Source of the DNA: Acidobacteriota bacterium
GTDB lineage: Bacteria; Acidobacteriota; Blastocatellia; Pyrinomonadales; Pyrinomonadaceae
Assembly: GCA_025463135.1 (NCBI GenBank)
Contig: JAOAPY010000008.1
Span: forward strand, 62,001-126,000
Direction of reading: 5' to 3'
Length of the DNA stretch: 64,000 nt
In this document: positions 29,672 through 34,034 of the stretch, piece after piece
Layout of the letters: each line of letters begins with the position of its first letter
Position numbering within the stretch: the first letter of the stretch is position 1
Translations under genes and position numbers: made by a program
Notes under the pieces: generated by a model
What the model saw: only the letters and a program-made list of their open reading frames with translations
The model's database searches: none
What the model was told of the DNA's origin: nothing

Positions 29672-30886
29672 ATGACGATAGACAATGAGCTCATTGATAA
29701 TCTGCTGAAGAACTACAAAAAGCCTGAGGATCTAATCGGCGAAAACGGGCTGTTGAAGCAACTGACTAAGCAGTTACTGGAACGGGCGATGGCCGCGGAG
29801 ATGACCGAGCACGTCGGCTATGACAAGCACGACGCGGCCGGAAACAACAGCGGCAACTCGCGGAACGGCAAATCGGCCAAGACGATCAAAGGAACGTTTG
29901 GGGAGTTGGCGCTGGAGCTGCCGCGGGATCGGAATGGGACGTTTGAGCCGCAGATCATCGAGAAGCATCAGACGCGCTTCACGGGTTTCGACGCGAACAT
30001 CATCTCGCTGTACGCGCGCGGGCTGTCAACGCGCGAGATTCAACAACATCTCGAAGAGATCTATCACGTAGAAGTCTCGCCAGGGTTGATCTCGAGCGTG
30101 ACAGATGAAGTGCTCGATGAAGTGAAGACTTGGCAGAACCGGCAGCTCGAGGCGGTCTATCCGATCATGTATCTGGACGCGATCCAGTTCAAAGTGAGAG
30201 ATAGCGGACACGTCAAAAACAAAGCGATCTACCTGGCGATTGGGGTGACGATCGAGGGCTACAAAGAAGTGCTGGGGTTGTGGATCGCGCAAACGGAAGG
30301 CGCGAAGTTCTGGCTGCAAGTGGTGACGGAACTGAAGAATCGCGGCGTAACTGACATCTTTATCGCCTGTGTGGACGGACTGAAAGGCTTTCCGGAAGCG
30401 ATTGAAAGTGTCTTCCCGCAAACGGAAGTGCAGTTGTGCATCGTGCATCTGGTGCGGTACTCGCTGAACTATGTGGGCTGGAAACAGCGCAAGGAAGTGG
30501 CCCGGGACCTGAAGACGATTTACACCGCCGCGACCGACGTCGAAGCCGAGCAACGACTGGCCGAGTTCAGTCTGAAGTGGGACGCGAAGTTTTCGATGAT
30601 CGCGAAGTCCTGGCGCGGCAACTGGACCCGCGTGATTCCGTTCTTCGCGCACCCGCCGGAGATTCGGAAGGTAATTTACACAACCAACGCAATCGAGTCG
30701 CTGAACATGTCGCTACGCAAGGTGACCAAAGCGCGCGGCTCGTTTCCCAACGATGAGGCGGTTTCGAAACTGCTCTATCTGGCTCTGCGCAACATCGCGA
30801 AAAAGTGGACCATGCCGCTCCACGCGTGGAAGGACGCGCTCAATCGCTTCGCCATCATCTACGAAAACCGGCTGCCGGCGAACTAA
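29672..30886 (+). CDS. IS256-family transposase
   Basis: A 404-residue DDE transposase of the IS256/Mutator group, which moves the element through a circular intermediate. The catalytic triad is Asp169 (MYLDAIQ), Asp235 (CVDGLKG) and Glu342 (TNAIESLN). The C-x2-H motif CIVH at 256-259 is the family mark. The N-terminus contains LLKQLTKQLLERAMAAEMTE and HVGYDKHD, as in other members. Length is normal and there is no frameshift, so it is probably active. The start follows ACAGGAGACCAA. Confidence 0.95.
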   Translation: MTIDNELIDNLLKNYKKPEDLIGENGLLKQLTKQLLERAMAAEMTEHVGYDKHDAAGNNSGNSRNGKSAKTIKGTFGELALELPRDRNGTFEPQIIEKHQTRFTGFDANIISLYARGLSTREIQQHLEEIYHVEVSPGLISSVTDEVLDEVKTWQNRQLEAVYPIMYLDAIQFKVRDSGHVKNKAIYLAIGVTIEGYKEVLGLWIAQTEGAKFWLQVVTELKNRGVTDIFIACVDGLKGFPEAIESVFPQTEVQLCIVHLVRYSLNYVGWKQRKEVARDLKTIYTAATDVEAEQRLAEFSLKWDAKFSMIAKSWRGNWTRVIPFFAHPPEIRKVIYTTNAIESLNMSLRKVTKARGSFPNDEAVSKLLYLALRNIAKKWTMPLHAWKDALNRFAIIYENRLPAN

Positions 30887-32125: not shown

Positions 32126-33442
32126 TTACGGATACGACAGTTTCACTTCCACGCCCTCGGCTACGGGCCCGGAATCAAAAGCGACGATGCGCGCATTCCA
32201 ACCGAGATTCAGAATCTCCATCTTTTGTCCGGCAAAGCGGCTTTCGAGGTACCACTTCATTTCATGCTCGGAACGTATCGGGTTGTACTCCAACATTTTC
32301 TTCCAGTCGGGATGGCTGACCAGCTTTTGCAAATTTGCTTTGAAGTCGGGGTTCGTCCGCCGGCCAAACATGGTGCGCAGTTTATCCCTGATCAACTGCG
32401 CATACTCTTTCCTTTTCACCGGGACAGTGACCATGTCCACGATCAAAAATCGCCCATCGGGTTTGAGCACACGACGCACCTCAGTCAACAACGGATCCCA
32501 GTCAAGATAACGAAACGACATCAGCGAGATGACAACATCGAACGTTGCGTCGCCGAAAGGCAAAGCCGGTGAATTGATTTTCGCAAACTCCAGGTTCTTG
32601 TGCGCCGCGTTTCTTTGCCGCGCCTTTTCGAGAATGGCTTCAGACTCATCGACGCCGGCCCCATATTTTATCCGCTCACTTAAGGCATGAAGCAGCGCGC
32701 CATTGCCACAGCCAATGTCCAGCACACTCAGCTCGCTGGTCCCGGGAAGATGCTGGTTGAGCCATTCCCATTCATCCCTTCTCACGGTGATATCCGTGAA
32801 GGCCGCGTCATATAGTGCCGCCACCTTGTTGTATGAAGGATCGCCCGTCAGGGGCCGCGGCCCAAACATCTTCATTTCTTCGGCGGGCATGAAGCCGGAA
32901 AACTTCACCAGCGAAGCAGCCAGACCATGCGATTTCCGACCCTTGCAGCCGATCGTGTAAAGCACTTCAGTGGCTGCCGTGGCTGAAGCATAACGATAGC
33001 GCGTCTTGCTCCGGGAAAAAGTGGTGTACCAGAAAAAGCCGTAGGCGTTCACGCTGAAAGTGCGGGCAAAGTAAGGCGCAAACCAACGTGCCGAGCGACA
33101 ACAGTGAAAATATGCCGAGGCGTCCGGCGCAAAAGGGATCTGCATTGTTTCCCATTCGTAAGGACTGAACTGTTCAGGAAAAGCAACCGTGCCGAACATT
33201 GGTCCATACATTCCCGAATGACCGACAAAGTGGAATTCGCTAATCAACTTTCCCGCGGATTGTAGGGAGGCAAAGATTTCCAGGACTTCGCGTTTGCTTT
33301 CTACAGCGCGCGAGATGATCTCGCCGGCAAAGCCGCTCTTTTTTTTCTCGCGGGCCAGGGTGTTGGCCACGATAGGGAACTGCCTGCCGCCTTTGCGGTA
33401 GAGGGTTGTGTAGACAATTACGATGACGCGGTCCGGGGACAT
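32126..33442 (-). CDS. Fusion of a caspase-like/CHAT-like domain with a SAM methyltransferase
   Basis: A 438-residue protein in two parts. Residues 200-438 are a class I methyltransferase: motif I VLDIGCGNGALL at 240-251, then LPFGDATFDVVISLMSFRYL, and LKPDGRFLIVDMV. Residues 1-190 look like a clan-CD (caspase-haemoglobinase) fold. An opening strand VIVIVYTTLY precedes FHFVGHSGMYGP with His75, then a strand AYFHCCRSARWF with Cys114/115 where the catalytic Cys is expected, followed by AYGFFWYTTF. The linkage is from motif shape only; a papain-like or inactive domain is possible. I know no characterised protein of this architecture. It is monocistronic and diverges from the plus-strand gap beyond it. 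Confidence 0.65.
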   Translation of the reverse strand: MSPDRVIVIVYTTLYRKGGRQFPIVANTLAREKKKSGFAGEIISRAVESKREVLEIFASLQSAGKLISEFHFVGHSGMYGPMFGTVAFPEQFSPYEWETMQIPFAPDASAYFHCCRSARWFAPYFARTFSVNAYGFFWYTTFSRSKTRYRYASATAATEVLYTIGCKGRKSHGLAASLVKFSGFMPAEEMKMFGPRPLTGDPSYNKVAALYDAAFTDITVRRDEWEWLNQHLPGTSELSVLDIGCGNGALLHALSERIKYGAGVDESEAILEKARQRNAAHKNLEFAKINSPALPFGDATFDVVISLMSFRYLDWDPLLTEVRRVLKPDGRFLIVDMVTVPVKRKEYAQLIRDKLRTMFGRRTNPDFKANLQKLVSHPDWKKMLEYNPIRSEHEMKWYLESRFAGQKMEILNLGWNARIVAFDSGPVAEGVEVKLSYP

Positions 33443-33937: not shown

Positions 33938-34034
33938 GTGGCACGGGCGTCCCGCCCGTGAAGTTGCGCAGGGTTCAAGTAAAGAGGAAGCAAGACTGAT
34001 GCGCGAGAAACATGGGCAGGATGCCCATGCCACA
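33938..34034. repeat. R8 paired palindrome (copy 1)
   Basis: Left hairpin GTGGCACGGGCGTCCCGCCC and right hairpin GGGCAGGATGCCCATGCCAC in inverted orientation, about 50 bp apart. The right end lies 6 bp from the M28 stop codon. Confidence 0.75.

Follow-up and report, generated by a model that had tools for sequence, protein, structure and literature searches.

To our knowledge, work on bacterial proteins with a caspase fold has treated them chiefly as proteases of cell death, defence and regulation. The caspase motif QACRG places a Cys-Arg pair after strand 4, and the Peptidase_C14 proteins as a group (caspases, metacaspases and MALT1) share with the protein described here the fold as predicted by the model, a GHSG-type His after strand 3 and a Cys-Arg after strand 4. 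The joining of a caspase-fold domain to other domains, as seen here, is likewise known in bacteria, where the multidomain proteins of prokaryotic metacaspases include NACHT-WD40 and FGE-sulfatase partners in the portions of the survey available to us (PMC3501461). Those portions name no methyltransferase partner, 'methyl' occurring in them only as Methylobacterium (PMC3501461), and the literature searched, including the accessible parts of PMC8195603, PMC3501461 and PMC13323088, yielded no description of a caspase-fold/methyltransferase fusion. Such a fusion is encoded within the window (the whole stretch of DNA analysed, 64,000 nucleotides of an Acidobacteriota genome), together with a gene of the Asp/Glu-racemase (MurI) family (Table 1). 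Its N-terminal domain differs from Peptidase_C14 in having no PF00656 match up to E 10, either in the whole protein or in any of 25 members, in its length of about 190 aa, in the extra invariant residues Cys114 and Cys166 and in being fused to a methyltransferase. The fold class and the methyltransferase class are thus known ones, and we rate the combination and its racemase partner as new.

The reading frame and the fusion are confirmed as more than a product of chance. Relatives were found at 29 loci in other genomes, all metagenome-assembled, by a contig scan whose queries were peptide patterns of the window protein and which picks up close relatives only. The labels of these genomes are Acidobacteria or Acidobacteriota, Blastocatellia, Pyrinomonadaceae or Chloracidobacterium, one (L011) being labelled 'bacterium' only. 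All 28 translated matches (L001–L028) are free of stops; frame 1 of the plus strand, across the interval of the fusion gene, contains them. In a 28-row alignment of the window protein with 27 relatives, from which the truncated L023 and L029 were excluded, the relatives are 64–74% identical to it from end to end, and mean column identity is 80%. Of the 190 columns of the N-terminal domain 78 are invariant, as are 100 of the 239 columns of residues 200–438, similar shares that therefore indicate equal constraint on both halves.

Table 1. Features of the fusion gene, its racemase partner and the adjoining transposase gene, in window coordinates
Feature	Position	Strand	Basis or remark
Fusion gene, 438 aa	32126..33442	minus, ATG start	clan-CD-like domain + class I SAM methyltransferase
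N-terminal clan-CD-like domain, residues 1-190	32873..33442	minus	model, fold matches, C14 profile match
Methyltransferase region, residues 200-438	32129..32845	minus	SAM motif LDIGCGNGALL; Pfam
Arg16 codon, loop after strand 1 (YTTxYRxGG)	33395..33397	minus	invariant
His75 codon (GHSG, residues 74-77)	33218..33220	minus	predicted catalytic His; invariant; on C14 GHG His
Cys114-Cys115 codons (HCCRSA, residues 113-118)	33098..33103	minus	Cys115 predicted nucleophile; invariant
Cys166 codon (YTIGCxGRKSHG), between strand 6 and last helix	32945..32947	minus	invariant
Asp/Glu-racemase (MurI) family gene, 251 aa	31137..31892	minus	PF01177; downstream of fusion
Mutator-family transposase gene	29672-30886		adjoins racemase gene; Transposase_mut 421 bits, nearly whole profile

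All 21 Pfam rows of the whole protein fall in its C-terminal part, with Methyltransf_25 at residues 240–330 (71.4 bits against a cut-off of 27) and Methyltransf_11 at 241–334, also over its cut-off, the class I SAM domain spanning approximately 240–334. A SAM-binding domain over the Pfam cut-offs is what the fusion has in common with the Methyltransf_11/25 and UbiE-like group. Within motif I, D242, G244, C245, G246, N247 and G248 are invariant in the 28-row alignment. None of the best 25 of 57 NCBIfam rows reaches its cut-off for this part of the protein, and a conserved C-terminal stretch, SEHEMKWYLESRF, has no family assignment. A sequence-only reading had described a two-part frame with GHSG and HCCRSA motifs and a class I methyltransferase in the rest of the protein; both descriptions are borne out, the first by the 29 other loci, 28 of them stop-free, and the second by the Methyltransf_25 match. 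The structural matches of the methyltransferase are small-molecule enzymes such as CysG(N-16), RebM and phosphoethanolamine N-methyltransferases, and the C-terminal half is probably a SAM methyltransferase of this small-molecule type, predicted to be active. An arsenite methyltransferase was considered and rejected, as ArsM-type NCBIfam scores lie far under cut-off and the methyltransferase part has a single invariant Cys, Cys245 in motif I. A role in defence was also set aside, PADLOC matches being confined to the methyltransferase domain (mad2, 8.1e-17; orphan methyltransferase, 0.0081).

The N-terminal domain of the window protein matches no Pfam family, and the N-terminal domains of 25 members returned four Pfam families, one member each, with best E values of 0.039 to 0.23; a search of PDB sequences with the domain profile gave one chance row (E 6.7). 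The model of the whole protein is moderate (pLDDT 73.3, pTM 0.61), and that of the domain, built on 25 similar sequences, has a pLDDT of 83.2 and a pTM of 0.83. The main strands of the domain model are residues 5–11, 41–46, 66–73, 104–113, 132–135 and 162–165, with His75 directly after the third and Cys114/115 directly after the fourth, an arrangement that we take to be the layout of clan CD. When the domain model was compared with the PDB by Foldseek, no match reached E ≤ 0.001; the best was the MALT1 paracaspase (E 0.028, probability 0.96), with type II dehydroquinases next. Structural re-alignment with VIA gave the SAVED-CHAT filament (8tl0) as its top row (Z 9.4, 146 residues aligned, 4.1 Å), and other matches include Tce1 (9.4), MALT1 (8.5), caspase-6 (8.4), legumain (8.4) and a plant metacaspase (8.2).

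By our reading, rows 1–36 of the VIA comparison are clan CD (Z 9.4–7.9, 138–154 residues aligned), as are 48 of the best 50 of 971 rows with Z ≥ 2, a count that overstates independence because many of them are entries for caspase-3 or -6. The cysteine protease domain of TcdB is, we assume, a C80 peptidase. Tce1 is counted as clan CD because its authors liken it to that TcdB domain, in the part of their report available to us (PMC13323088). The two other rows of the best 50 are flavodiiron proteins that cover only residues 4–163; the first row outside clan CD, at rank 37, is a flavorubredoxin (Z 7.9) aligned over the same residues, whereas clan CD rows reach residue 191. Rows within 1 Z are tied, and therefore only the first two (Z 9.4) are clear of the flavorubredoxin; a Z under 8 may reflect a common arrangement. 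Because the best VIA Z is typically 7–8 where Foldseek gives no clear match, a best Z of 9.4 is suggestive and not decisive. The modelled domain (residues 1–191) is in this sense suggestive of a clan CD fold, nearest to CHAT, MALT1, caspases, legumain and metacaspases.

Sequence profiles were compared with two clan CD families, C14 and CHAT, of which only the C14 set was enlarged, and that after its signal had been seen. Against nine C14 domains of the window's genome, hhalign gave a score of 29.2 (P 0.0011), with 100 block shuffles scoring 24.8 or less. Against 35 C14 domains of the class (Blastocatellia, a name taken from the record titles) the score was 34.7 (P 8.4e-5, probability 60.5); the top score of 200 block shuffles was 30.4, none reaching 34.7, and the methyltransferase and racemase profiles each scored 19.1. 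As a yardstick, CHAT compared by hhalign with the nine-domain C14 profile, a case of accepted relatives, gives P 7.3e-5 and probability 62.6. In the C14 comparison the confidently aligned stretch is residues 5–80, which includes His75 (on the GHG His) and does not extend to Cys115. The extended (mact 0) alignment sets Cys115-Arg116 on the Cys-Arg of the 35 C14 domains, and with the smaller profile the extended alignment likewise sets Cys115 on the catalytic Cys. Cys115 is for this reason the likelier nucleophile as judged from the alignments, with Cys114 occupying the place of the preceding residue. Read as remote homology, the profile match would make the N-terminal domain a divergent relative of Peptidase_C14, lying under the detection of PF00656. 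For CHAT, 8tl0 is the top VIA row, tied with the rows within 1 Z of it, but a profile of 19 CHAT domains from the window's genome found no match in hhalign (P 0.16) and there is no Pfam PF12770 row, and CHAT membership by sequence was rejected.

These comparisons also bear on an alternative that we consider improbable, in which the domain does not belong to clan CD but is a flavodoxin-like Rossmannoid whose Cys114, Cys115 and Cys166 bind a metal or carry out thiol chemistry on the methyl acceptor. The closeness of type II dehydroquinases to MALT1 in the Foldseek ranking, the flavorubredoxin at Z 7.9, the vicinal Cys pair with its third invariant Cys and the unmatched CHAT profile would all suit such a domain; it accounts poorly for the 48 clan CD rows, which cover the whole domain, and for a C14 profile match that exceeds 200 of 200 shuffles and places both residues of the dyad.

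In the 28-row alignment, His75, Cys114, Cys115, Arg116, Ser117 and Cys166 are invariant. Among 33 distinct N-termini, a set that includes loci from whole genomes, His75 is present in 33 of 33 and the Cys114/Cys115 pair in 32 of the 32 that extend there, the 33rd being the truncated copy in genome G357, in which the match is lost after residue 113. Loops at the C-terminal ends of the strands are invariant at 29 of 58 positions, a share that becomes 29 of 40 when the variable loop 144–161 (0 of 18), set apart only after inspection, is excluded; the corresponding counts are 3 of 23 for opposite-face loops, 28 of 59 for helices and 16 of 43 for strands. On the model, invariant positions are thus frequent where the active site of a clan CD protein would lie. 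The position of Arg16 is presumably close to that of the caspase arginine that binds the acidic P1 residue, and by analogy Arg16 is a possible counterpart of that arginine. The sequence-only reading had seen a clan CD arrangement in the N-terminal ~190 residues, had named the fold of residues 1–190 and the conservation of His75 and Cys114/115 as checks, and had called the domain caspase-like/CHAT-like. The best structural matches and the count of N-termini bear out the two checks; the caspase side of the label is supported by the C14 profile (P 8.4e-5), and the CHAT side fails at the level of the sequence profile.

Two further alternatives turn on this pattern of conservation. The domain could be a sensor or scaffold derived from clan CD, in which ligand binding regulates the methyltransferase without cleavage of any bond, and a large part of the conserved surface (Y11–F22, G74–W97 and Y162–G173) could bind such a ligand. 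In its favour, some caspase homologues are non-catalytic, the dyad being intact in 84% of bacterial metacaspases (PMC3501461). We regard this as unlikely: His75 and Cys115 are invariant in all copies that cover them, and we count against it that domains serving only in binding tend towards loss of the nucleophile. The other alternative, which follows the sequence-only reading, makes the domain a protease that acts on the fusion itself, or on a partner protein, and that would by this cut release, gate or mature the methyltransferase. An invariant dyad in a clan-CD-like fold would serve this purpose, the loop 144–161, with no invariant position, is a possible cut site, and self-processing is common in clan CD families, which we count in its favour. 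The caspase intersubunit linker, however, lies between strands 4 and 5, and the variable loop comes after strand 5; such gating would also leave the racemase partner unexplained, and we think it quite unlikely.

The racemase gene product matches PF01177 at 50.6 bits (cut-off 31) and solved glutamate racemases with a best E of 8e-23. Against the MurI equivalog TIGR00067 it scores 95.2 bits and two relatives score 110.7 and 115, all short of the cut-off of 146.65, and MurI is encoded separately in the window's genome (225 bits). Asp11, Cys74, Glu148, Cys178 and His180 are invariant in 24 aligned rows; we take Cys74 and Cys178 to be the catalytic cysteines and Asp11, Glu148 and His180 to be catalytic residues, and because these are invariant the two-cysteine racemase chemistry looks intact. 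The match to PF01177 over its cut-off and both cysteines are common to this protein and the Asp/Glu/hydantoin racemase family. The usual MurI motifs are DSG and CNTAS, whereas the partner racemase has DWG and CNAAS (in DWGIGG and CNAAST), and these departures suggest a substrate other than that of MurI. Partner racemases score 348–436 bits in 33 of 162 genomes of the class, and no other racemase match among those listed for the phylum exceeds 141 bits.

At 29 of 29 loci the fusion is followed downstream, on its own strand, by a relative of this racemase. With start sites picked by script, 18 of 30 loci (window included) have gaps of −1 to 19 bp and the median gap is about 10 bp; the two genes are 233 bp apart in the window and 704–706 bp apart in two loci. 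Within the class, the N-terminal domain occurs in 34 of 162 genomes (22 of 101 of good quality). Matches in 32 of the 34 lie in open frames of at least 287 aa, the remaining two being the truncated copy in G357 and a contig-end fragment in G361, and no stand-alone N-terminal domain was seen among the genomes searched (162 of the class and 396 of the phylum). Some piece of the pair is present in 35 genomes of the class, the 34 with the domain and G364. Fusion and racemase occur together in 32 of these 35, in 31 of them close on one contig; in G355 the pair is divided between two contigs, with the fusion C-terminus directly before the racemase. The exceptions are G361, G357 and G364. At L159, in G357, the fusion is truncated after residue 113 and stands without the racemase beside the usual neighbours; L158, in G364, has the racemase and the usual neighbours without the fusion. 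Since G357 and G364 have lost parts, the module can be dispensed with and the racemase may survive by itself, provided that the drafts are correctly assembled. Pairwise identities across 24 loci correlate at 0.74 between the N- and C-terminal parts of the fusion and at 0.55 and 0.60 between these parts and the racemase, values that are as expected from shared descent and are no proof of interaction.

In samples of the phylum, strong matches to the domain were confined to the class of the window's genome, with 14 among 396 genomes and the same restriction among a second set of 297. Thirteen weak phylum matches (E 0.0126 to 0.66) were rejected as distant stand-alone domains; they are chance-like, several having an internal stop. 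It might be argued from this single-class distribution that the two domains have independent roles, that the gene has descended vertically in one lineage and that the racemase is a chance neighbour, particularly as in one genus many loci share their flanking genes as well, and G364 carries a racemase that lacks the fusion beside it. Yet the pair persists where other neighbours change, is found also in genomes of a second family (G283 and G417) and is mostly tightly spaced, and we hold a chance association to be very unlikely.

Alongside the computed fusion, conservation, fold match, dyad placement and gene pairing, our current working hypothesis, to which we give somewhat less than an even chance, is that the two genes form a metabolic module in which an active Cys/His clan-CD domain, a methyltransferase and a racemase act on an amino-acid-derived or peptide substrate. 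The N-terminal half would act as a cysteine hydrolase or transamidase of clan CD, catalytically competent through a His75-Cys115 dyad; its Cys would form a thioester at a carbonyl, followed by hydrolysis or transfer, the methyltransferase would methylate the released or bound group, and the neighbouring MurI-family racemase/epimerase would set the stereochemistry at the alpha carbon. We infer in this scheme the activity of both domains, a substrate shared with the racemase, the order of the reactions and the class of compound to which that substrate belongs. Because 32 of 35 genomes carry the racemase gene together with the fusion, metabolism is favoured over self-regulation, and we consider the two-gene module more likely than a protease gating its own methyltransferase. 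It is possible, though we are doubtful of it, that the caspase fold here belongs to a cysteine amidase/transamidase-methyltransferase which, with a racemase of altered specificity, makes or degrades a methylated D-amino-acid compound or peptide. If the association of caspase fold, methyltransferase and racemase proves to be of the metabolic kind, the fold would serve metabolism too, and clan CD chemistry would be directed at a small substrate rather than at protein cleavage. The locus would then add a clan-CD-like family undetected by Pfam and offer a compact two-gene system for testing the caspase fold in metabolism, and the pairing in Acidobacteriota hints at a metabolic pathway new to description.

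Beyond the pair, no widely shared biosynthetic neighbours were found in the flanks of the 29 loci. The flanking ORF clusters there include DUF58 (18 loci), SpoIIM (18), META (15), an ABC transporter (13) and Patatin (10), families named from the Pfam matches of individual members at L008 and L004. Neighbours differ in the remaining loci, and in the window the flanking genes encode an M28 peptidase and the Mutator-family transposase. A single cluster of genes of about 582–595 aa lies upstream of the fusion in L004, L009, L014, L019 and L025, the L004 member being a radical SAM protein. A RiPP system, in which protease, methyltransferase and racemase would act on a precursor peptide, was considered and rejected, the 500 bp upstream holding no candidate short ORF; the most shared upstream frames inspected either belong to the DUF58 coding sequence or overlap with it.

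A mobile origin was likewise rejected. Among 1055 plasmid records matched by the whole protein none covers more than 80% of the query, and the 20 matches listed all begin at residue 170 or later; the N-terminal domain matched one plasmid (E ~1) and no phage, and viral contigs held no relative of the fusion.

The window's genome contains 21 CHAT matches (19 over cut-off) and 12 Peptidase_C14 matches. Contigs C51 and C55, where CHAT matches also lie, account for nine of the Peptidase_C14 matches. In genus g3, two of ten genomes have a Peptidase_C14 match; the fusion is carried in that set by G038, G096, G105, G149 and G181, and among these carriers Peptidase_C14 is matched only in G149. A scan for promoters and terminators gave no excess over shuffles. 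Upstream of the fusion, at 33938–33952, lies the 15-mer GGACGCCCGTGCCAC, which occurs exactly once in the window and is a dispersed repeat: the window's genome contains 77 exact copies, and the reversed sequence, taken as a control, has 0.
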